Positions 1-64,000 of a stretch of 64,000 nt of DNA are shown here, in pieces (position 1 is the first letter of the stretch; the number at the start of each line of letters is the position of its first letter). The notes beneath the pieces are model-generated. The model was not told the DNA's origin and made no database searches. It worked only from the letters and a program-made list of their open reading frames with translations. Source of the stretch: Owenia fusiformis (Eukaryota; Annelida; Polychaeta; Sabellida; Oweniidae). The translations under genes and the position numbers were made by a program. Where the stretch lies: assembly GCA_903813345.2 (NCBI GenBank), contig CAIIXF020000001.1, positions 50,859,885-50,923,884 of the forward strand, read 5' to 3'.

Positions 1-761
1 TATATCATTCATTTACTTTTTTCTTGACTTTAAAACTCAGTTTTTTATTTCTCAATTATTCAAATTTCCTGCCATTTTTCAAATAAAAGATGAACCTTTT
101 TAATCATCATTCAAAGATACTTGTAACTTCAAAAATTGCATGATTTTTTTACCAAAAAATCCTTCAAAAACCACTTTTGGATAAGACTACAATATAAGCC
201 AAAGTGGTTTAACTTTATAGGGGGTCTTTAAGTATATGCTAAAGGCAATGTTGACATTTATGAAGAAACAATTAGTTTTGTTTTTGTTGGCAAAGATTTT
301 AAAATATACTGCCATATGCCAACAATATTTCAATACTATTTCTACTGGCATCTAGTCTATTTTACATAGAGGACCTAAGGCCTGGGAGTCCAGTAATTAG
401 TGGTTAAATAATCTAAAATCACGTTTTCACATTATTACAGAGTTATCAATCTTGTCAGTAAGTGGATTCTGGTCTTCTAATCTGTACACAGGGTATGGCA
501 ATATAACATTTATATTTTTTTCTTTTATAATACATGGATTCCAATAATATTTTCACAGGGGATGGAGAAACCAATCTATATCATAATGCTCTTTATCTAT
601 AATGGTATTTGAATGGGGAAAGTTAACATACAGGGTGGGCCAATTGTAACTTTTTTATTTATTAGGGGTGAGTCAACAGGTCAAAATTACTTTTGGTGAG
701 GGACATTAAATATTAGCAAAGGATTTATCTGAGTTCCAAAGAACAATGAAGAAACCTTTTT
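1..761. other. AT-rich sequence, no gene seen
   Basis: AT-rich DNA with no long open frame and no recognisable motif. If the FAAP20 call at 2909-2981 is right, this is intronic sequence upstream of its last exon. I looked here for the missing CxxC half of the zinc finger and did not find it. Confidence 0.5.
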
Positions 762-1060
762 AATTTGTGGGCTCAATCTAGTACATTGCTCATTACATTA
801 AATAAGGGCTTAGAATTTTTTGCTTGTACTGGCAGATTTTCTGAACCATTTTTTCTTGATACTAAATCATCTTTTTTTTCATTTTACTTAATTTTTTAAT
901 TTGTGGGCTCAATCTAGTACATTGCTAATTACATTAAATAAGGGCTTAGAATATTTTTTTGCTTGTACTGGCAGATTGCTTATACTGGCAGATTTTCTTA
1001 ACCATCTTAACCATCTTTTTCTTGATACTAAATCCTCTTTTTTTCATTTTACTTAATTTG
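762..1060. repeat. Tandem duplication, two copies of about 136 bp
   Basis: The stretch beginning AATTTGTGGGCTCAATC at 762 is repeated from 898, with the same order of landmarks (TTGCTTGTACTGGCAGATT, then TTCTTGATACTAAATC). The second copy has a short internal duplication of TACTGGCAGATT. It is non-coding; an open frame running through it is chance plus repeat sequence. Confidence 0.85.
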
Positions 1061-1182
1061 TCCTATTCTTATGTTCCATTTTGTGTCTTTAAATCATTTG
1101 AGAATAAACTGAGCACACCTACATACATACTTTCTCTTTTTTTAACTTTTAACTTTTTATATAAAAAAAAACAAAAAAACTT

Positions 1183-2470
1183 TTATTATCCCATCGAACA
1201 AAGTTCGGAGGAATATAGGGAATGCCTCCGTCCGTCCGTCCATCCGGGTAATAACTCAAATACCGTTGGCCCGATTTTGTTCATAATTTGTACACATATA
1301 CCCTATGGGGGTAGAAATTCTGCTCGAAAGCCGATTTTCAAAATGGTCGCTCATTTAAAAAGTGCCGATCTTACAGTAATTTAGGTGCAATATGTAAAAC
1401 TGTAATAGCAATATGTTTTAAACGTAAAAAAATTATATAGGACATTAATAAAGCTAGAAATGTAGATATTAAAGAAGCACATGGCAGCCATCTTGAAAAA
1501 TGGCGGTCTTTACTCGTTATTTTACGATTTTTGCTTTAACTCGAAAAGTAGTGGAGCGATTTTGTTCATATTTAGTATGAGAATACTATAAGCATGGCAC
1601 ACTGTTTAACGACACTTTTGGAAGAAGGCCGCCATTTTGAAAAATGGCCCTCGTTTTAACGTATTTTACTATAACTCGAAAAGTAATGAGCGATTTTGTT
1701 TATATTTGGTATGTGAAGACTATAAGCATGGCACACTGTCTAATGACACTTTTTGTAAAGGCAGCCATTTTGAAAAATGGCCGCCATTATAACATATTTT
1801 ACTATAACTCGAAAAGTAGTGGAGCGATTTAGTTCATATTTGGTATGTGAATACTATAAGCATGGCACACTATCTAATGACACTTTTGGTAGAAGGTGGC
1901 CATTTTGAAAAATGGCCACCATTTTAACGTATTTTTCTATAACTCGAAAAGTAGTGGAGCGATTTTGTTCATACTGTACTCCGGGTATTGTTCGCGTACA
2001 ATTTAATTTCGCTTTGTTCGCGAATGTAGTAAAATCGCGAACATTTATCGTCTCAAAATTTGTCTTTTAAATTCCCGGGGATTTGACCCGGGACTTTTGA
2101 TATGTTTCGTTCGCTGTAAAACGTTTCATCCAGTGTTGTTCGGCGATAATTAAAGTTATCATGGGGTATTGTTCAATTTTATATCAACAATTGATGTACT
2201 TGGCTGCTAAGTTCATGCATATGTAAAAAGGCATGTAAGTATATTAATATTATCAATATGGAGTTTACAGAGCTGGAGGAAAAAATTCAACTTGTGCAAT
2301 CCACGAAATGTCATCAACTCAAATCCGCGAAATTGCAATTTTGAAAAATCGCGAAATTTTATAGCGTCAAAATTTACCAGGAGTACAGTATTTGGTATGT
2401 GAATACTATAAGCGTGGCACACTGTCTAATGACACTTTTGGTAGAAGGTGGCCATTTTGGCAGCCATTTT
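1183..2470 (+). repeat. Polar dispersed repeat with 134-bp internal tandem units
   Basis: The start reads TTATTATCCC followed by CGAAC-GAA-GTTCG-like hairpin sequence (one base changed here), then a CCGTCC-rich tract and AATAACTCAAATAC. The same head occurs at 16795 (+) and, inverted, at 59820 (-). From about 1490 it carries tandem units with the marker GCATGGCACACTG at 1592, 1726 and 1860, a period of exactly 134 bp, each ending in a Gly/Ala-codon-like AAAATGGCCGCCATTTT palindromic box. The array is split by a 415-bp insertion (1974-2388) and resumes at 2391. The superfamily is unknown. Confidence 0.8.
1974..2388. mobile_element. Nested MITE-like element with TA target duplication
   Basis: The ends are CTGTACTCCgGGTA and its inverse TACCaGGAGTACAG, a 14-bp terminal inverted repeat with one mismatch. 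TA flanks both sides (1972-1973 and 2389-2390). Removing the insert and one TA restores the host repeat phrase TTGTTCATATTTGGTATG seen intact in neighbouring 134-bp units. Subterminal CGCGAA motifs recur at both ends. There is no coding capacity. The TA duplication fits the Tc1/mariner-type or another TA-targeting superfamily. Confidence 0.85.
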
Positions 2471-2908
2471 TGCTATATACTTTGTTTGTAAAAATGCCAG
2501 CCATGGCTGTTCGATGGTATTTGCTACGCTTTGGTGTTGCTGTTGTCTAGTTGACATCTTGTATCATTACATTGGTCTTTTCTTGAAACCCCATGGTACA
2601 TGTATCTTTCTTACAGACTGGATGAGATGTCTGTTACTATTATTTGAGGCATGACCAATATTGATATAAAAGTGTTGTTTTGGCTATTAATATTTTATTT
2701 TATCTGTTAACCATTCATATTCAGAGACCACTGAAGATTTATTTAATCTATATCAGGATAAATTGCAAAAGTGATTTCTGCATCTATATACAAAGGAAAT
2801 AAAAATATATATGCATCATTGAAACTATTGCCAAATATATGGACATTTTTGACCTATACTGTAGATGTAAATTTCCTTGGCTTCAGAATATTTTTGACTT
2901 TTTTTCAG

Positions 2909-2981
2909 GGTGAACCAAATGGAGATTGATAGTCACATAGCAACATGTCTTGCTTCAGCTGATGATGATACAAATTGGTGA
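2909..2981 (+). CDS. FAAP20: FAAP20-like, last coding exon (partial gene)
   Basis: The exon follows a long pyrimidine tract ending TTTTTTTCAG. After one base that completes a split codon, it encodes VNQMEIDSHIATCLASADDD, then T-N-W and stop. The H-x3-C pair is the second half of a UBZ zinc finger. FAAP20 of the Fanconi anaemia core complex ends with such a UBZ followed closely by an acidic tail and a C-terminal Trp, and in human it lies beside SKI. Its known role is ubiquitin binding and stabilising FANCA at DNA crosslink damage. The CxxC half and the rest of the gene should lie left of the window. Sequence alone is short; the SKI neighbour makes the call much stronger. Confidence 0.75.
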
Positions 2982-4391
2982 ATTGTGATAAACAAACGGG
3001 TGATATAGTGATACAAGTACATGGAAACGCAAACTGAAACAACTTGCTTCATCAAGCTTCGGACCAGTCCTCAGAACGTAGTAGATTGAGCATAGGAACC
3101 GATGATGTACTGAACCCTCAATGGAAATACTTCAAGACAAGACAAGAAGTTGAAACACCCATGTAGTTAAAAATTCATTCTATATTTATGATGTAAATTA
3201 GCTTTGTGATAAGACGATTATATTTTGAACTGGATCCTTTTTGAACTGACATTTAGACTCAACTTTAATGCCTCATATCTGCGTCATATCTGCTCACCAG
3301 ATAGAAACCCAGAAATTCATGAAAGTACATTTGTAAATCTTAATTTATAAAATAGATGGCAACAATGAATTTTCAGTTATGGAAAATAGACTCATGGGCT
3401 TCAAAGAGAGGTATAGGAAACTGTTCTAAGACTTGTCTTTGGAGATTTTAGTTTAACAAAATTCATATGGTTTAGGTTTATGATGTGCTGTCCTATCAGA
3501 TGAAAGGGGTGAAAAAGATTTTGATACGAGTTAAGAAAAGAATTGCATGCATTCTGAATATTTGTGAAATGAAATGGTAGAAGGAAATATAGGATTTTCT
3601 ATACACAAATGAAAAATGTGTATTTTGTAATAAATGTGCTTGTTGAATATAATGGAGGGCTATTATGTAAGCATTCAAAATTTTTCTCAATCTTGTGATA
3701 ATTGAACATACACAAAATGTCATTAGAATTACACACAAGCTCAGATATGATATCCATGCCCCTAGTAGCTGTATTGAGAAGTAATTATAGGGTGAGACCA
3801 TTGAGTCAATGGAAGATTCATATCCATTTCTTCAAGTCCATAATAATTGCAGTCGTTGGCCTGCTAGGCTGATAGCCAGTGTGGTTATCTATGGAATTAA
3901 CACAATCTCACAACAGTTAGATCAATACCTGTCTCAAGGTTTTTGATAAGTCTATTCTACATTTATCTGTGTGCTATCAATGAAGACAAAATATTAATCA
4001 CACGAAGGAGACCGTTCTTGCAGTCTGGATGATGCTGTGTGGTAAATCTCTCTTCATACATCCAACCTCAGGGAATTACGATTTAATCATTATAGACTAA
4101 TATTGGCTTCATAGTAAAGACAGTTAGAGGAGAATTCAATTTTCCACATACTTGGGTCGAATCAGTTCACGTCATTCAGACGTTATTTTGCCAACGAATC
4201 TCAGGAGGGATAGAGTGAAGTCCTCAGTCTGTCTATATGTCTGTCAACCAGTTCATTTAGCTCACTAATGTTCAATGTACCAATAAACCAATAATCCTCC
4301 ATGGAGTCACTGTTTTCTAGTTCACTTATTTGCTCAATGTTTAATGTGTCAATGAATTCAACAACTTGGAGAAGGTACAGTTTTAATAGTA
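2982..4391 (+). other. Probable FAAP20 3' UTR
   Basis: Non-coding sequence after the FAAP20-like stop, without another gene. The first convincing poly(A) signal I see is at 4681-4686, so the untranslated region may span this stretch and the small transposon at 4392-4575. Confidence 0.4.
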
Positions 4392-47918: not shown

Positions 47919-48531
47919 GGGTTTGAGGTATTTCTGTGCACTCTTGATGAAGGCCACCATGGATATTAAAAATACATCTAACATCTGTTTTTGATGTTTT
48001 ATTCAATATCTCCATTCATGCAAAGATATTCTCAAACAATCAATGAATACTTAAATCACAACTTCAAAGTCGTCTCAATTATGAAATATCAATATTATTA
48101 CAGCTTTCACGTAAAAGGATTTCCCATAGCCGCGACAATATAAAATAATGTGTCTTATCACAAAAGCACTTACTATAGTAATAAAATAGATATAACTGGA
48201 CAAATTACAATGTAAATGTATGTATTTCGCTATTTTGATTGGACATGGTACATGATATCAGAACTGCATATGCAACATTGTGTTTGACAGTTCAATGTTA
48301 TCTCTCTTTAAAAAATTACAGTTCGGCTAGTGTCCAACAGTTGAAATAGCCATACTGTTAAGTGTTTATCAATAGATAGGGCTGTCTGTAATTTCCTGGT
48401 CTTTTATCCACTGTTCAATCATGAGTTAGCAAACATGCTCCATTATTTAGTGAAAGAGGTTAACACCATCATGACTGTGTAGCTCTTAGCGTAATGCACT
48501 TCAAGAGTCTCCAAGAGTTGTGATGTTACCA
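47919..48531 (-). other. USP48 3' UTR region
   Basis: Non-coding sequence after the USP48 stop. The candidate poly(A) signal is listed separately. Confidence 0.5.
47998..48003 (-). terminator. Candidate poly(A) signal for USP48
   Basis: TTTATT on the + strand, AATAAA on the - strand, about 530 bases after the USP48 stop codon; a modest TGTT/ATGT-rich stretch follows. Confidence 0.4.
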
Positions 48532-48584
48532 TCATTTCCCTCCTAGTAATCCAGTCCCCTTAAATCCCTCTTCTGGATAATTCA
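48532..48584 (-). CDS. USP48: USP48, last coding exon
   Basis: On the - strand it follows GTGATTTCAG. Two bases complete a split Val codon; it then encodes NYPEEGFKGTGLLGGK and stops (TGA). PEEGFKGTGLLG is the hallmark C-terminus of animal USP48, which makes this 53-base exon secure despite its size. It lies 3.5 kb from the preceding exon because of the minisatellite between them. Confidence 0.93.
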
Positions 48585-48699
48585 CTGAAATCACAAATAT
48601 AATCTTACATTAACAAGCCATACCAAATAATATAAACATGTAATACAATTATACATGGTGAAAAAGTATGTTAAAAAATAAGCGCAAATAAGGGCACTA

Positions 48700-51050
48700 T
48701 CAGGCTGTACCACAAACCTACACTGCAGTATCGAATCATGCCACTAGCCTACACTACAATATCTGATCATGCCACTAGCCTACACTACAATATCTGATCA
48801 TGCCACTAGCCTACACTACAGTGTCCAATCATGCCACTAGCCTACACTACAGTGTCAAATCATGCCACTACCCTACACTACAGTATCCAATCATGCCACT
48901 AGCCTATACTACAGTATCCAATCATGCCACTAGCCTACACTACAGTATCCAATCATGTAACTAGCCTACACTACAGTATCCAATCATGCCACTAGCCTAT
49001 ACTACAGTATCCAATCATGCCACTAGCCTACACTACAGTATCCAATCATGCTACTAGCCTACACTACAGTATCTAATCATGCCACTAGCCTATACTACAG
49101 TATCCAATCATGCCACTAGCCTACACTACAATATCCAATCATGCCACTAGCCTACACTACAGTATCTGATCATGCCACTAGTCTACACTACAGAATCTGA
49201 TCGTGCCACTAGCCTATACTAAAGTATCGAATCATGCCACTAGTCTACACTACAGTGTCCAATCATACCACTAGCCTACACTACAGTATCCAATCATGCC
49301 ACTAGCCTACACTACAATGTCCAATCATGCCACTAGCCTACACTACAATGTCCAATCATGCCACTAGCCTACACTACAATGTCCAACCATGCCACTAGCC
49401 TACACTACAGTGTCCAATCATGCCACTAGCCTACACTACAATGTTCAATCATGCCACTAGCCTACACTACAATGTCCAATCATGCCACTAGCCTACACTA
49501 CAGTATCTAATCATGCCACTAGCCTACACTACAATATCCAATCATGCCACAAGCCTACACTACAGTATCTGATCATGCCACTAGTCTACACTACAGTATC
49601 TGATCATGCCACTAGTCTACACTACAGTATCCGATCATGCCACTAGCCTATACTAAAGTATCCAATCATGTCCCTAGCCTACACTACAGTACCTTATCAT
49701 GCCATTAGCCTACTGTGCACTTCCAGGTCATATCACATATTATCACTAGCCTAAACTGCACTATTGGGACATACCACTAGCCTAAACTGCACTATTGGGA
49801 CATACCACTAACCTACATTCATGATTGCACTATCAAGACAAACCACTAGGCTACATTGCACTACTAGGGCATACCATGAGCCTAAACTGCACTATCGGGA
49901 CATACCACTAGCCTACTGTGCCCCTCTGAAAAACATATCTTAGCCTACATTGCAGTATCAGGATTTACAACTAGCCTACACTGCACTATCGGGACATACA
50001 ACTAGCCTAGACTGCACTATCAAGACATACTACTAGCCTACACTGCAGTATCAGGACATACCACTAGCCTATATTGCACTACCAGGACATACCACTAGCC
50101 TACATTGCAGTATCAAGACATACCACTTGACTACATTGCACTACAAGGACATACCACTAGCCTACATTGCAGTATCAGGACATACCACTAGCCTACATTG
50201 CAGTATCAGGACATACCACTAGCCTACATTGCACTACCATGACATACCTCTAGCCTACATTGCAGTATGGGGACATACCACTAGCCTACATTGCACTACC
50301 AGGACATACCACTAGCCTACATTGCAGTATCAGGACATACCACTAGCCTACATTGCAGTATCAGGACATACCACTAGCCTACATTGCACTACCAGGACAT
50401 ACCACTAGCCTACATTGCAGTATCAGGACATACCACTAGCCTACACTGCAGTATCAGGACATACCACTAGCCTACATTGCACTACCAGGACATACCACTA
50501 GTCTACACTGCAGTATCAGACCATGTCACTAGCCTACATTGCACTACCAGGACATACTACTAGCCTACATTGCACTACCAGGACATACCACTAGCCTATA
50601 TTGCACTACCAGGACATACCACTAGCCTACATTGCACTACCAGGACATACCACTAGCCTACATTGCAGAACCAGGACATACCACTAGCCTACATTGCAGA
50701 ACCAGGACATACCACTAGTCTACATTGCACTACCAGGACAAAATTGTACTTTTTCCTTTTTGTTTATATATGAATAGTTACGAATAATTGTAACAAATTT
50801 GTATTGCATATAAGTGTATGGTATATTTACTTCGAAGTTCAACACAAATGTTAAATTGATTAACCTTGTTGAATTTTCATTGTATGAAATTAAATGTTAT
50901 AATATATGAACTTGAAATAAAAATGAATAATAAAAAAAAACTACCAGGACATACCACTAGCCTACATTGCACTACCAGGACATACCACTAGCCTACATTG
51001 CACTATCAGGACATACCGCGAGCCTACAATGCACTATAATGACATTCCAA
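48700..51050. repeat. 31-bp minisatellite, two subfamilies, in the last USP48 intron
   Basis: About 65 to 70 units of 31 bp. From 48716 to about 49730 the unit is of the type ATGCCACTAGCCTACACTAC + AGTATCCAATC. From about 49740 to 50740 and 50941 to 51050 it is of the type GGACATACCACTAGCCTACA + TTGCACTACCA. The shared core is CCACTAGCCTACA. The two types barely mix, with a short transition near 49690-49990. A 200-bp retroposed insert interrupts the second block. Confidence 0.95.
50741..50940 (+). mobile_element. Retroposed poly(A)-tailed fragment
   Basis: A 200-bp AT-rich sequence ending AATAAAAATGAATAATAAAA and an A-run interrupts the 31-bp array. CTACCAGGACA precedes it (50730-50740) and is repeated directly after the A-run (50941-50951), as expected for a target duplication from L1- or RTE-type retroposition, although the host array itself contains this phrase. 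It is a 5'-truncated non-LTR element or an mRNA 3' end. Confidence 0.8.
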
Positions 51051-52091
51051 GTCTTCATAATATACATCTTACAGAAAATACTGAAAAGTTCCATTCAACT
51101 TCAAATAAAACATCAATTATCATTTTTGTTATTTTTAGAAAATTAAAATTCTGTAGTTAGTGATACCTTGACAACATAGAAACAGGAAAAACAACATATA
51201 AAGAAACCAAGTAAAAGAACATATAACAACATAAAAAACACCATATAAACACCATATAAAACAAGTAGGCGATTCCATACGCCCATCATGGGATCAGAAA
51301 GTAAATGTCAATGAACAATCCTACTCAAGATATTACTAATTGCTATAATTAATTTTAATTTATGTTGCACAACTGCAGGGGAAGATATTGGCAATTTTCC
51401 AAGTATTTATAAATCGAGAAGAATATGAACATCTATATGTGAATTATAATTTTGTTTTAATTAACTGAAAAAATAATATAGGAAAGATGACAAAAAACAG
51501 GCCAAGCTGAGTTATATTCAGAGGTAATAAATAATATAATAAAACAGAGCAAGCTTATGAGATTTTACACACAAGCTGCTTGCATTTGCTTTATATTCTT
51601 AAACAAACAACCATCATGTTCTCAAGGATTCCAAGAGATGGTCACAAAACGGAATCTGCCATAAAATAGCATAATTATATCAAGGTGCAAATAGATTGTA
51701 CACGTACATACACTAAAACTCGGTTGCATCTTGCAACTACAGTATACACTCGAATTAAAACATCCAATATGATAACCAGATTTTCACACAAGAGCTATAG
51801 AACTTGATACCATTTGGCCAGAGTAGTTTCCTGATGCAGGAAAGGGGGATGTAACACAAGACATAACACAATCATGCTGGGAGTATCAGAGTGACTAAAA
51901 GACATTTAATTCACCACTGTAACTTTAGAACAACTTTTCTGAGAACTGAGATTCCCAACTTATACTGAACAGGGGCATAGCAAGGATATTTATTCAGACA
52001 GTTTTTTTCTATTGAAACTGTTAATGTCTTATATTATATTTCCTCTAAAAGATTGCATCCTATGTTATATTATTTTTTATGTTTAGCATAC
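51051..52091 (-). other. USP48 intron, remainder
   Basis: Non-coding intron sequence between the 31-bp array and the ADEP-encoding exon. No repeat with definable ends. Confidence 0.6.
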
Positions 52092-54456: not shown

Positions 54457-54629
54457 CTGGGAGAAAAGTGGATCATCTTTGTCTTCTGTGGGACCAGCTA
54501 ACCTATCAATACTTCCAGGTAAATCTTTGTTGCTCGTTACTTTACGCACATACAGCTTTGCATCTTTGTATTCCAGCCTCTCTTTCATTTCTTGTGCATT
54601 GCGGGCAGAACAGCATTCTCGACAGACTT
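54457..54629 (-). CDS. USP48: USP48, exon after the DUSP modules
   Basis: 173 bases between CGTCTTCAG and CCAG|GTAAAC. Two bases complete a Glu codon; it then encodes VCRECCSARNAQEMKERLEY, then KDAKLYVRKVTSNKDLPGSI and a variable acidic end (DDPLFSQ). The CxxC and LEYxxAxxYVRKVTSNK are conserved in USP48. A second donor 42 bases further on, in the same phase, would lengthen the exon to 54415 (see findings). Confidence 0.93.
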
Positions 54630-54680: not shown

Positions 54681-55355
54681 GAAAAAGCTTATAAACTCTA
54701 TTTTTGTATGAAGGCTAAATTGATTTCAGCTAAGGAATGGCATGTAGAATCAGATTATAAACTCTATTTTTGTATGAAGGCTAAATTGATTTCAGTTAAG
54801 GAATGGCATGTAGAATCAGATTATAAACTCTATTTTTGTATGAAGGCTAAATTGATTTCAGCTAAGGAATGGTATGTAGAATCAGATTATAAACTCTATT
54901 TTTGTATGAAGGCTTAATTGATTTCAGCTAAGGAGTGGCATGTAGAATCAGATTATAAACTCTATTTTTGTGTGAAGGCTAAATTGATTTCAGCTAAGGA
55001 ATGGCATGTAGAATCAGATTATAAACTCTATTTTTGTATGAAGGCTAAATTTATTTCAGCTAAGGAATAGCATGTAGAATCAGATTATAAACTCTATTTT
55101 TGTATGAAGGCTAAATTGATTTCAGCTAAGGAATAGCATGTAGAATCAGATTATAAACTCTATTTTTGTATGAAGGCTAAATTGATTTCAGCTAAGGAAT
55201 AGCATGTAGAATCAGATTATAAACTCTATTTTTGTATGAAGGCTAAATTGATTTCAGCTAAGGAATGGCATGTAGAATCAGATTATAAACTCTATTTTTG
55301 TATGAAGGCTAGATTGATTTCAGCTAAGGAATGGCATGTAGAATCAGATTATACA
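54681..55355. repeat. 66-bp minisatellite in a USP48 intron
   Basis: About ten units of 66 bp, including AAACTCTATTTTTGTATGAA and GCTAAGGAATGGCATGTAGA. Since 66 is divisible by three and most units lack a stop, open frames arise on the + strand (22 residues per unit, KLISAKEWHVESDYKLYFC), but some units read TAG in place of TGG. Starts about 50 bases upstream (in gene sense) of the exon at 54457-54629. Confidence 0.93.
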
Positions 55356-56023
55356 GTTTGCACCATGGTATTATTACTTCATGATAAATACAAGGCATTA
55401 ACATACAAAAGGTCATCATCTGCAATTTGTTACAGACGCCGAACTCCAAACACCAGATTCTAAACACCATTCACAAAAATGTTGGAGACTATAACAATAT
55501 GTCAACTAGAAGTGGTGACGTAAATACAAAACAGAGAACCTAGAAATATTATAAAACAAATCCGTCATCCATCTACGTATTTCATTCTCTGACGTATTTT
55601 CTGATTAGCACATCTTGGGAGGGCAGCCCTGGGAATGCCCCTTAAATGTGCTAATATGTGCACACTGTACAGGACATCTTTTTATTTTATTAGCATGTTA
55701 ACACCCTCCTAAATCCCAAATGTGCTAATATGAACTTTTTAAAATTTCATAAGCACAGACAGAAACTGTCTATCCACATGTCTCTGATGTTATGCATGTT
55801 ACAATACTCTTGGTGTCCATATTTCAATTAGAGCTACCAAAGACTAGAGATGGTAAACTGTAGGAAGTAATCGTTTCAATAAGCATGCCAATGATTCCCT
55901 TACAATCCTGATTCTATTTTCTTATAATGGCATTAAGTAATCAAATCAAATTCAGAAGCTACTCGTTAAAAATATTTAATATGCAGAAATATCCAAATTC
56001 AATAGAATTGAAAAAGAATTCTT
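55356..56023 (-). other. USP48 intron between two arrays
   Basis: Non-coding. A phrase near 55390-55500 (AAGGCATTAACATACAAAA, CCAAACACCAGATTC, ATGTCA) is similar to 54195-54310 and 52390-52450, so a diverged low-copy repeat recurs in these introns. Confidence 0.55.
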
Positions 56024-56845
56024 CTAGTCTCACCTGGTTATGTTATGAATGTGACAAGACCCGATTCTTCTCTTTTCACCTGGTTGCGTTATGAATGTGA
56101 CAAGACCCGATTCTTCTCTTTTCACCTGGTTGCGTTATGAATGTGACAAGACCCAATGCTTCTCTTCTCATCTGGTTGTGTTATGAATGTGACAAGACCC
56201 AATTTTTCTATTCTCATCCAGTTATGTTATTAATATGACAAGACCAGACTCTTCTATACTCACCTGGTTGTGTTATGAATATGACAAGACCCGATTCTTC
56301 TCTTCTGAACCTTATGTTATTAATATGACAAGACCTGATTTATCTATTCTCACTTGGTTGTGCTGTGAATGTGACAAGACAAGTGATTCTTTTATTCTCA
56401 CCTGGTTGTGTTAGGAATGTGACAAGACAAGTGATTCTTTTATTCTCACCTGGTTGTGTTAGGAATGTGACAAGACCTGATTTATCTATTCTCTCTTGGT
56501 TGTGCTCTGAATGTGACAAGACCCGATTCTTCTCTTTTCACCTGGTTGCGTTATGAATGTGACAAGACCCAATGCTTCTCTTCTCATCTGGTTGTGTTAT
56601 GAATGTGACAAGACCCAATTTTTCTATTCTCATCCAGTTATGTTATTAATATGACAAGACCAGACTCTTCTATACTCACCTGGTTGTGTTATGAATATGA
56701 CAAGACCCGATTCTTCTCTTCTGAACCTTATGTTATTTATATGACAAGACCTGATTTATCTATTCTCACTTGGTTGTGCTGTGAATGTGACAAGACAAGT
56801 GATTCTTTTATTCTCACCTGGTTGTGTTAGGAATGTGACAAGACC
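56024..56845. repeat. About 46-bp minisatellite carrying splice-donor sequences
   Basis: About 18 units of 46 to 47 bp, of the type TCACCTGGTTGTGTTATGAA + TGTGACAAGACCCGATTCTTCT. A block of nine units is duplicated as a whole, with a higher-order period of about 416 bp (56105 and 56521 align). On the - strand nine of the units contain CAG|GTGA, a strong donor. The array runs into the 3' end of the USP48 exon at 56818-56939, so the last 28 coding bases of that exon are themselves the first repeat unit. Confidence 0.93.
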
Positions 56846-56939
56846 TGACTCCTCTTCTATTCTCGTGACAGCTATTTCTACATCAGAACTTAGGAAACCA
56901 CAAAGGATGTTCCATTCATCAGGCTTGATGTAACACATA
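56818..56939 (-). CDS. USP48: USP48, exon with repeat-derived 3' end
   Basis: On the - strand it follows ATTATTCCAG. It encodes MCYIKPDEWNILCGFLSSDV, EIAVTRIEEES, then GLVTFLTQP, ending at CAG|GTGAGA. The PDEW and VTRIE phrases fit the third DUSP module of USP48. A weaker donor (TCAG|GTCTTG, exon end 56845) gives the same phase and a product nine residues shorter. I prefer 56818 because its donor is consensus and the spacer before the next CxxC then has about the usual length. The extra residues come from the minisatellite unit. Confidence 0.85.
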
Positions 56940-60684: not shown

Positions 60685-61005
60685 TAACTGAAGATTTTTT
60701 TTATTAAATCAACCGTTTATGGAACTTACTTACCTCTTAATTATATGCCATTACCTTAATAAATTGACTAGTCGAAAGGTCTAACACCCCTATTGAATGA
60801 ACGGATTAGTGAATGAACTCGTCCAATACACTGCCTATCCATGCTTCATGCTACGACCTACTTCATATTACCGAGAGACCTCGAAGATACAAAAAAATAA
60901 AATAAAAAATTTCCCTCAAGCGGGGAAGGTGGGTGGGTCTCTGGTAATTAAGAGGTAAGTAAGTTCCATAAACGGTTGATTTAATAAAAAAATCTTCAGT
61001 TTATA
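60685..61005 (-). repeat. DIRS right terminal repeat plus internal complementary region
   Basis: 60685-60742 (AACTGAAGATTTTTTTTATT and on through AACCGTTTATGGAACTTACT) is repeated inverted at 60943-61000 with a single length difference in the T-run. Immediately after the inverted copy, 61008-61035 (CTTACTTCCCTCTTAATTAT) resembles 60726-60753 in direct orientation. Adjoining pieces complementary to both element ends form the internal complementary region of DIRS1-type retrotransposons. A GC-rich CCCGC box lies in the 200-bp spacer. Confidence 0.8.
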
Positions 61006-61094: not shown

Positions 61095-62597
61095 CTACAG
61101 GTCGCACACAGTTCCAGCCAGCATCACAGGTCCTAGCTTTCTAGCTTCATCTTGTAGGACTGTGACACCACGCAGATAAAAGTCGATAAAAGTGTTGTTG
61201 TGAGCCCAAGAGCAACTTTTCAATATTTCTGTTAGGCTAACATTCGACTGTACTGCATATGAGGCTGATAACGCTCTTATTTCATGTGCGTTAACTTTCC
61301 CAATTCTTCTACTCTCAGCTGTGGAATTATTGTAGGTTAGAAGAATCAGATGTTTCATCCAGCTGGATAAAGTATTTAAGTGTAAATTGCTATTACACCC
61401 TTTCTTCCAAGGTATGAAGATCCTATTCCTGGTACCTCTGAAGACTCTGGTAGCAGCAAGATAAAATCTGAGTGCTCTAAGTGGGCATAAGCATCGATCT
61501 GGATCATTTCCCACATGGCTTGCCAATGATTTCAGATGTATAGGTTGAAATCTGGCTTGTCCCTCTGCTGCTTCCAAGCTCTTTGGCAGAAAACCAATGA
61601 ATGGATAGAGGAAAACTTCTGTATTGTTATTTTTCCATTGTATCCTTGTAACATCTAAGGCATGTATCTCACTACGTCTCTTGCCCGAGGCTAACAGTAG
61701 AAGAAATACAGTCTTTAAAGTCACCCATTTGATATCTGCCGAATTCATAGGTTCAAATGGAGGCTTTAATAGTTCATGAAGTACAAAAACCAAGTCCCAT
61801 TTGGGTAAGGTAGACTTTGGAATTGCATCTTCTAATTTAAAGGATCTCAACATATCATGTATCACTTGTGATTCTGAGAGATCTTTAGATTGTGTAGATT
61901 TCCTGACATTGTTTATAGCTGTTCTGTAGCCCTCGATAGTAGAAAAAGACCTCTTTTTAGTGTTTCTGAGATAAATGAAGAAATCTGCAATCATTGGAAT
62001 AGATGCCTCGATGGGATTGGTATCTCTTTCCAAACACCAAACAGAGAATAATTTCCACTTTGAATCGTAGATGGCATTGGTAGATTTTCTCCTAGACTTT
62101 TGTACTGCTTTGGACACTTCTTCAGAAAACCCCTCCTCTCGCAAGTTATTGTTGATAACAGACAAGCGTGTAGAGACATCTTTTCTGGATCTTGATGAAA
62201 AATCGAGGTCCTTGGCATAAGAAGGAGTTTCTTCCATATTGGAATCAGTACAGGAAAATCTACTAGTAGACTGAGAAGGTCTGGGTACCATGGTTGATTG
62301 GGCCATTTTGGTACTATCATTACACATTTTGTGTTTTGGTGAGCCTGCAGTTTGTTCAGGACTGCTGCTATCATTGCTGTTGGGGGAAATATGTAGAAGT
62401 ACATGTTGTCCCAATTCAGTGACATGGCGTCTGTTTTCCACGACTGAAGATCTGGAACTGGAGCCACGTAAACTGGAAGTTTGTGATTGTGAGATGTGGC
62501 CATCATGTCCAGATTGGGAGTTGGCCATATTTTCCATAGATTCTTGGTTATGTCTGCATGAAGAGACCACTCTGTGTTGACAATCTGGTTTTTCCAA
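61095..62597 (-). CDS. DIRS tyrosine recombinase ORF
   Basis: An intact 500-codon open frame that opens at a TTG; the first ATG is about 20 codons in. The core-binding region lies at residues about 165-260 (KWKLFSVWCLERD, STIEGYRTAINNVRK). The catalytic set is visible: Arg in LLLASGKRRSEIHAL (about 307-308), His-x-x-Arg in NAHEIRALSASYA (438-441), Trp in SWAHN (464) and nucleophile Tyr in FIDFYLR (474). This is the phage-integrase fold used by DIRS elements to integrate their circular DNA. The first 130 or so residues overlap the preceding ORF in another frame and are probably not true recombinase sequence; translation may begin near residue 120-140. Confidence 0.92.
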   Translation of the reverse strand: MEKPDCQHRVVSSCRHNQESMENMANSQSGHDGHISQSQTSSLRGSSSRSSVVENRRHVTELGQHVLLHISPNSNDSSSPEQTAGSPKHKMCNDSTKMAQSTMVPRPSQSTSRFSCTDSNMEETPSYAKDLDFSSRSRKDVSTRLSVINNNLREEGFSEEVSKAVQKSRRKSTNAIYDSKWKLFSVWCLERDTNPIEASIPMIADFFIYLRNTKKRSFSTIEGYRTAINNVRKSTQSKDLSESQVIHDMLRSFKLEDAIPKSTLPKWDLVFVLHELLKPPFEPMNSADIKWVTLKTVFLLLLASGKRRSEIHALDVTRIQWKNNNTEVFLYPFIGFLPKSLEAAEGQARFQPIHLKSLASHVGNDPDRCLCPLRALRFYLAATRVFRGTRNRIFIPWKKGCNSNLHLNTLSSWMKHLILLTYNNSTAESRRIGKVNAHEIRALSASYAVQSNVSLTEILKSCSWAHNNTFIDFYLRGVTVLQDEARKLGPVMLAGTVCDL

Positions 62598-62610
62598 ATA
62601 ACTGATCTGC
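61991..62610 (-). CDS. C-terminal domain of the DIRS RT ORF, in a shifted frame
   Basis: The RT/RNase H frame stops at 62548, but an adjacent frame, open from upstream of 62610 down to 61991, carries the sequence that normally follows RNase H in DIRS proteins: NTEWSLHADITKNLW, DMMATSHNHKLPVYV, KTDAMSLNWDNMYFYIFPP and MIVPKWPNQPWYPDLL. DIRS1-type elements are described as having a Dam-like methyltransferase-related domain here. The conserved part ends near 62270. The split points to a one-base frameshift around 62585-62615 or to programmed frameshifting. Confidence 0.75.
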
Positions 62611-64000
62611 CCTTCTGTTCAGTGATCCTGGAATATGATTCGCTCTGAGTACAATTTGCTGATTGTGACACCATAAGAGAATCTCCTGAGTTAACTGGAG
62701 TAGTTGAGGGGAATGTGTTCCGCCCTGGTTGTTGATATATGCTGCTACAGTCGTGCTGTCTGTGCAAATCAGAATATTCTGTCCAGTTATCATTTCCTTG
62801 AAGAACATCAGAGCTTTCTTGACTGTTAGTAACTCCAGAAAGTTGATGTGATGACTTGATTCCAACTGGGACCAGACTCCAGAGCATTCCTGCGATTGTG
62901 TGTGGGCCCCCCATGCTTCCAACGATGCATCTGTGTAGATTGTCATTGTTGGGTGAAATCTGTTGAGAGGCTGACCAGCTTGTAAATTCCTGGGGTCTAG
63001 CCACCATAGGAGTGCCCCCTGAGCATCTGGTGAGAGGACAACTAGATGTGACTGGGGCTGAGATAGAGGAGACCACTGTTGGAACAGACAACACTGTAGA
63101 GGTCGTAGATGAAGACGACCCAATGGCACTTGTTTCTCCGCAGATGACAACAGGCCTAGTAGAGACTGCCAAGTTTCTGCTGAGGCTATTCCCTTCTCTA
63201 GAAGATGTTGTCCAGCTTTCCATATCTTTTCTACTCGATCGTGAGGGGGACGGCAAATTCCCTTGCTGAGATCGTATTCTACTCCCACATAAGTGAACTT
63301 CTGAGTTGGTTGTAGTTCCGACTTCTTGAAGTTTATGAGGAAACCCAGAGCCTGAGCCAGTTCCAGCACCATCTGAGTATGTTGTAGAACTACTGTAGGT
63401 GAATTGCCTCGAATCAGCCAATCGTCGAGGTAATAATGAAACAGTATGCCTCTGGAGTGAAGATGAGCTGCTAGAGGCCGTAACAGATGTGTCCAAATCA
63501 TCGGGGCTGATGCCAGACCAAAGGGCAGGGCTTTGAATTGAAGTACTTGGTCCTGAACAACAAAGCGCAGGTATTTCCTGAATGACTGCTTGATTGGGAG
63601 ATGAAAGTAAGCATCTACGCAGTCTATGGACGTTACCCACTGTTGAGGCTGTACTGCATCCATGATCTGTGCTACTGTTTCCATCTTGAACTTTGGAACT
63701 TCTAGATGAAGGTTCAGATGATGCAAGTTGATGACTGGTCTTAGAGAGCCGGATTTTTTTGGGACGAAGAAAAGATGACTGTAAAGGCCTGGACTGGATA
63801 CGTTCTGGACAACTTCTATGGCCTGTTTCTCCAGAAGTTGAGTGACTGTAGCTGCATAAAGGTCTTTTCTGTCTCTTGTTGATGACTGGAAAGGCCAAGG
63901 ATTGCATGTAAGGGTAGGTTTTGTGTGAAGTTTCGGCTGGTAACCTTCCTTTATGATCTGTAGAAATCCTCCTAGATCTGTGATTTCTTTCCATTTGGCA
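62548..64000 (-). CDS. DIRS reverse transcriptase / RNase H ORF (partial)
   Basis: This frame is open from the right window edge to a TAA at 62548-62550. Its beginning reads KWKEITDLGGFLQII, then YSHLFFVPKKSGSLRPVINL, the fingers region of DIRS reverse transcriptase. The palm motif LPFGLASAPMIW and catalytic YLDDW follow (Tyr codon about 63432). RNase H signatures are YTDASLEAWGA (about 62934), FLELL and CTDSTTVAAYINNQGG. The frame breaks shortly after NRRADQL. RT copies the element RNA and RNase H removes the template. Confidence 0.93.
   Translation of the reverse strand, partial: AKWKEITDLGGFLQIIKEGYQPKLHTKPTLTCNPWPFQSSTRDRKDLYAATVTQLLEKQAIEVVQNVSSPGLYSHLFFVPKKSGSLRPVINLHHLNLHLEVPKFKMETVAQIMDAVQPQQWVTSIDCVDAYFHLPIKQSFRKYLRFVVQDQVLQFKALPFGLASAPMIWTHLLRPLAAHLHSRGILFHYYLDDWLIRGNSPTVVLQHTQMVLELAQALGFLINFKKSELQPTQKFTYVGVEYDLSKGICRPPHDRVEKIWKAGQHLLEKGIASAETWQSLLGLLSSAEKQVPLGRLHLRPLQCCLFQQWSPLSQPQSHLVVLSPDAQGALLWWLDPRNLQAGQPLNRFHPTMTIYTDASLEAWGAHTQSQECSGVWSQLESSHHINFLELLTVKKALMFFKEMITGQNILICTDSTTVAAYINNQGGTHSPQLLQLTQEILLWCHNQQIVLRANHIPGSLNRRADQLFGKTRLSTQSGLFMQT

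Follow-up and report, generated by a model that had tools for sequence, protein, structure and literature searches.

How does an exon keep its end when the junction that defines it has been multiplied many times over, and from where did the copies come? These questions are raised by a USP48-like gene on the minus strand of a 64,000-nucleotide stretch of contig CAIIXF020000001.1 (forward-strand positions 50,859,885 to 50,923,884; this whole stretch is hereafter the window, and positions are those of the window unless a contig is given), where a minisatellite of 18 units of ~46 bp begins inside a coding exon and continues into the following intron. The array belongs with the exon-intron boundary minisatellites already known from amphioxus as 'mirages', and it was probably seeded from the gene's own exon, with the exon-nearest (proximal) donor serving as the default 5' splice site.

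The array occupies 56018-56864 on the minus strand, an extent given by Tandem Repeats Finder (TRF; period 46, 18.3 copies, 81% matches), and cutting at the anchor GGTCTTGTCA with at most two mismatches divides it into 18 units. Nine of these carry CAG|GTGA, namely the proximal one and eight downstream (GT starts at 56817, 56679, 56541, 56449, 56401, 56263, 56125, 56079 and 56033), two carry CAA|GTGAG (GT starts at 56769 and 56353), and seven are without a GT at the donor position. CAGGTGA occurs 11 times on the minus strand of the window, nine times inside the array, and not at all on the plus strand. Superimposed on the units is a second-order repeat (TRF period 416, 2.0 copies, 96% matches over 56018-56844), and pairwise comparison of its first copy (56430-56845, minus strand) with its second (56014-56429, minus strand) gives 397 identical positions out of 416 (19 differences). 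Because the copies differ at only one of 337 positions over 56844-56508 versus 56428-56092 (336/337 identical), duplication of this nine-unit block is, by the look of its sequence, recent or homogenised. The first-pass annotation had described an array of this period starting in the exon at 56818-56939 and reaching into the intron, nine units with CAG|GTGA and a block of units duplicated at about 416 bp, and all three descriptions were borne out.

Shuffle tests place the end of the exon within the array. Alignment of its last 28 bases to the intronic units gives a score of 56, a value that none of 1000 shuffles reached (shuffle maximum 22), and the exact match between exon and array extends to 31 bases (TCAGG...). 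Unit 1 and intron unit 9 agree at 48 of 48 bases, of which 28 in unit 1 are exonic and 20 intronic. The unit likeness of the preceding 16 exon bases (56864-56849) is suggestive only (score 21, reached by 26 of 1000 shuffles), and the remainder of the exon (56939-56867) is without likeness to the array (score 14, reached by 731 of 1000). Within a DNA search that passes over simple repeats and very common words, the array is unique to this locus: the unit pattern, at up to three mismatches, matches 13 times in the 498-Mb assembly, each time inside this array (control, 0), a 283-bp array query finds four places, all of them within it, and a 1-kb locus query finds one place. A dispersed satellite or transposon origin was rejected, since by this search the unit has no other place in the assembly. 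The USP48 array is also the only one with a donor-like unit among 27 tandem arrays of period 10-200 and score of at least 100 (14 in the window, four in two upstream 10-kb pieces and nine in ten sampled 10-kb regions).

The 122-nt exon that holds the start of the array (56818-56939, minus strand) is predicted from its AG| and |GT ends, its in-frame join to the next exon and its alignment to human USP48, and the following exon, the expected acceptor partner (54457-54629, minus strand), is placed by in-frame joining and the same alignment. Translated together, the array exon and its neighbours are identical to a human USP48 fragment at 90 of 237 aligned columns, and further upstream on this strand, at a distance of 14.3-17.5 kb, there are UCH-domain matches (C1:50931076-50931447 and 50934069-50934338). 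Because the human sequence aligns and a UCH domain lies upstream, so that a USP48-like C-terminal region and a UCH domain appear to belong to one gene, we call the gene USP48. The Pfam Usp-48 model scored the window gene at 17.4 bits, under its cut-off of 27, and its search across the genome returned no match, as was also the case for the controls. Comparison of the C-terminal region with the PDB yielded 13 sequences at E ≤1, the best at 0.071, of which 11 were ubiquitin or ubiquitin-like and two were phosphatases.

Pairing with U1 ranks the candidate donors. The proximal donor (CAG|GTGAGAAT, GT at 56816-56817, minus strand), our predicted default, has a U1 duplex energy of -11.1, the strongest of eight donors of the gene that were scored, the remaining seven ranging from -4.5 to -9.5. 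Among the ten downstream GTRA donors two reach -14.1, three -11.1, three -8.4 and two -4.6; the strongest decoy (CAG|GTGAGTAT, GT at 56678-56679, minus strand) has a block copy that starts at 56263. The donor is thus a strong one and has been multiplied, as originally proposed, and because five of the ten downstream donors match or exceed the proximal one in U1 pairing, competition within the array seems plausible. The protein length variants expected from such competition largely disappear once reading frame is considered. When spliced to the exons that follow, the donor of unit 2 at +48 (CAA|GTGAG, GT at 56768-56769, minus strand; U1 duplex -4.6) would give an in-frame, stop-free insert of 16 residues, and it alone would yield a longer stop-free product; read-through past unit 2, to any of the remaining nine donors, would meet the same TAA at 56758-56756 (minus strand). 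Within the exon, a weak alternative donor (TCAG|GTCTTG, GT at 56843-56844, minus strand; U1 duplex -5.6) would leave the frame open and remove 27 nt, or nine residues. Many candidate donors would therefore give few protein lengths: one longer, one shorter and otherwise a single truncated or decayed message.

Nor do the donors look kept. Mean conservation of the donor core CAGGT is 0.74 versus 0.88 in the other columns of 13 distinct rows, the lowest of 44 five-column windows, and 2.9% of five-column sets drawn at random score as low; the test is weak, given the relatedness of the 13 rows and a deletion at the donor that puts two 44-bp rows out of register. The comparison leans towards neglect or removal of decoys, and selection to retain the donors was rejected because no other part of the unit is as poorly conserved as their core. 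The AG|GT of the units might also serve in re-splicing inside the array, bounding a new intron between the GT of one copy and the AG of another, though the pyrimidine tracts for this are weak: the 16 positions before the AG hold 8-9 pyrimidines in units with CAG|GT and 9-12 at the seven real acceptors compared, one of which was read one base off.

These measurements bear on an alternative in which splicing draws appreciably on the downstream donors and array length tunes USP48 output, with unit 2 giving the +16-residue form and the other donors giving truncated or decayed messages. Although the U1 energies of half of the downstream donors fit such use, and two downstream repeat units serve as donors in human IFI6 (6-16, G1P3) according to a report that cites Turri et al. 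1995 (PMC4526556), we regard it as unlikely: of the ten downstream donors, the only one to avoid a stop is one of the two that pair least well with U1, the other nine share one stop, the donor core is less conserved than the rest of the unit, and RNA data on mirages suggest that regular splicing is undisturbed (PMC3087553). We infer instead that splicing uses the proximal donor by default and that the ones downstream stay largely silent.

Which way the copying went can be approached from the exon itself. Its end reads TRIEEESGLVTFLTQP, the next exon continues EVCREC, and the two together align across the splice junction with human USP48, TRIE...QYISEPKLCPEC, following the pattern F/Y-L/I-T/S-Q/E-P-E/K-V/L-C-x-E-C with a three-residue gap after TRIE. 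Because of this alignment, the exon end is more likely to be old coding sequence from which the intron copies derive. According to the first-pass annotation, the first unit supplied the last 28 bases of the exon; their place in unit 1 is upheld, and their origin from it is doubtful. The reverse order, in which the present exon end is repeat-derived because the array predates it or has replaced it through repeat exchange, strikes us as improbable, somewhat more so than appreciable use of the downstream donors. It draws on the identity of units 1 and 9, on the near-identical block, which starts at 56844 within the exon, and on the homology beyond the last 31 exon bases, which is suggestive; against it stand the alignment of exon end and junction with human USP48 and the failure of the assembly search described above to find the unit elsewhere.

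We infer the following course of events for an exon-seeded array. Through a tandem duplication, the last part of the exon and the donor GT adjoining it would have been copied into the intron, each copy forming a CAG|GTGAGAA-like donor, and the bases 3' of the GT may descend from the exon's GAGAATAG, for which the likeness is suggestive only. Subsequent turnover of units, including duplication of the 416-bp (nine-unit) block, would then have led to the present 18. The array could persist because the exon-nearest copy still completes the exon, the other copies being removed as intron. Several points weigh against this reconstruction. Its direction rests on the alignment with human USP48, and the match over 48 bases between units 1 and 9 places the exon inside an exchange tract. 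Ahead of its last 31 bases the exon resembles the unit only suggestively (26 of 1000 shuffles), which leaves the seeding detail weak; half of the downstream donors equal or surpass the proximal one in U1 pairing; and the conservation test has related and shifted rows.

The original paper on amphioxus Adh appeared in 2002 (Nucleic Acids Research, NAR, 30:2871), and Turri et al. 1995 reportedly described the splice-donor minisatellite of human IFI6. Mirages are minisatellites of exon-intron boundaries, described in amphioxus for Adh3 and for the globins BflGb6 and BflGb9; their units measure 10-160 bp, lie at either exon end and in many cases, not all, keep AG/GT signals, and the arrays are unstable in length (PMC3087553). 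The first-pass annotation knew of no named family of splice-donor minisatellites; mirages are that family (PMC3087553) and IFI6 is a human precedent (PMC4526556). The USP48 array resembles amphioxus mirages in spanning an exon-intron boundary and in having splice signals in many, not all, of its units (9/18 CAG|GTGA, 2/18 CAA|GTGAG, 7/18 none), and differs from them in its gene and in combining 18 units with a second-order repeat. As in IFI6, a single exon receives several donor sites from a minisatellite; the difference is that the IFI6 repeat donors are reported to be in use, whereas those of USP48 are predicted and nine of the ten downstream would bring in a stop. The tandem AGGT duplications proposed to generate introns (the Rogers model, multi-copy cases in fission yeast and potato RdRp; PMC4974935) likewise involve a duplicated exon segment holding AG|GT, but in USP48 the AGGT sits across a junction that was already there, and the copies lengthen its intron. 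The new aspect may be the host, a point made here with no literature search by name for mirages outside amphioxus: genome G+C is 34.7% (ten sampled 10-kb regions), unlike the ~41% of amphioxus, and the host may not be a cephalochordate; a COX1 search returned no match.

Two further junction arrays were found in this genome, both at acceptors. At C9:8170600-8174400 a 150-bp unit is repeated 11.2 times (positions 1351-3029 of that locus), the unit consisting of an intron end and the beginning of a deubiquitinase exon that encodes the catalytic cysteine box. The best PDB matches of this deubiquitinase, which we take to be USP22/Ubp8-like, are the ubiquitin carboxyl-terminal hydrolase 6tbm, USP36 and USP15. 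The array has 11 acceptor-like sites with at most two mismatches; all ten of the exact acceptors give open exons in the same phase, and a single 666-codon frame covers the array, so that a read-through exon would hold the catalytic cysteine box many times. At C2:23265700-23270300 a 159-bp unit is repeated 17.9 times (positions 646-3489 of that locus) and consists of an acceptor plus the first part of a KIF4-like kinesin exon (best PDB match, KIF4); only the last of its 18 acceptors gives an open exon, the other 17 leading to a stop after 45 codons. In both arrays an exon of normal length comes from the copy directly beside unique exon sequence, and tandem duplication across a splice junction would be tolerated because splicing removes the remaining copies. 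Both array exons have predicted boundaries that the repeats span, as mirages do, and this genome, with its donor array in USP48 and its acceptor arrays in the deubiquitinase and KIF4-like genes, has both of the boundary types described in amphioxus. For acceptor-side junction arrays, our literature search returned one report, that on amphioxus globins (PMC3087553).

Recurrence was assessed by eye in match tables for seven gene families, counting as an array at least three matches to one profile stretch at a constant spacing of less than 200 bp. Candidates scored were 98 of 98 for UCH, 124 of 876 for kinase, 122 of 218 for kinesin, 19 of 154 for AAA, 65 of 210 for myosin, 47 of 149 for DEAD and 92 of 719 for P450, and all counts other than those for UCH are lower bounds. 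One array was present among the 73 listed UCH matches (11 rows) and one among the at least 144 listed for kinesin (18 rows). No array was seen among the matches listed for kinase (at least 144), AAA (at least 22), myosin (at least 92), DEAD (at least 52) or P450 (at least 106). The USP48 array itself is absent from the seven tables, and the fact that two of the three array genes are deubiquitinases reflects where the search looked. Among the listed myosin matches there is an irregular cluster at C9:37986009-37994334, at least 12 matches to one myosin-head stretch (profile ~18-84), which is perhaps a cluster of alternative exons. Two diverged kinase exon-like matches to the same profile stretch, 178 bp apart and without a TRF array (C10:2256500-2257700), are possibly mutually exclusive exons.

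An assembly artefact or merged haplotypes, as might be suggested by the near-identity of the 416-bp copies along one part of their length (336 of 337 places), is highly improbable given units that match their consensus at only ~81%, an array of less than 1 kb, a single place for the 1-kb locus query and two further arrays of the same type. Since three junction arrays occur in one genome, two of them met among seven gene families, the class appears to be commoner than the few amphioxus reports suggest. We tentatively raise the possibility, which we consider less likely than not, that mirage-type arrays form a recurrent genome-wide class outside cephalochordates, surviving because splicing hides the copies that do not touch the exon, with decoys slowly worn by selection. 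If so, they would be natural experiments on splice-site choice and intron growth; with 11 to 18 units each, junction arrays offer a clean test of choice among near-identical sites as well as of how introns lengthen.

Other features of the locus are recorded here as separate observations. The intron that holds the USP48 array contains a second one towards its 3' end (54689-55353, 66 bp x 10.1, 97% matches), and the minus strand of this second array contains, by eye, an acceptor-like TTCCTTAG. Reverse-transcriptase-like and tyrosine-recombinase-like open frames, likewise identified by eye, lie on the minus strand at 61095-64000 inside a USP48 intron, and inverted repeats near 60690-61000 accompany them; the element, which resembles a DIRS-type retroelement, perhaps extends beyond the window. 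The longest array of the window by TRF is at 48708-50729 (31 bp x 64.6), and GC skew is -0.297 over 48001-52000.
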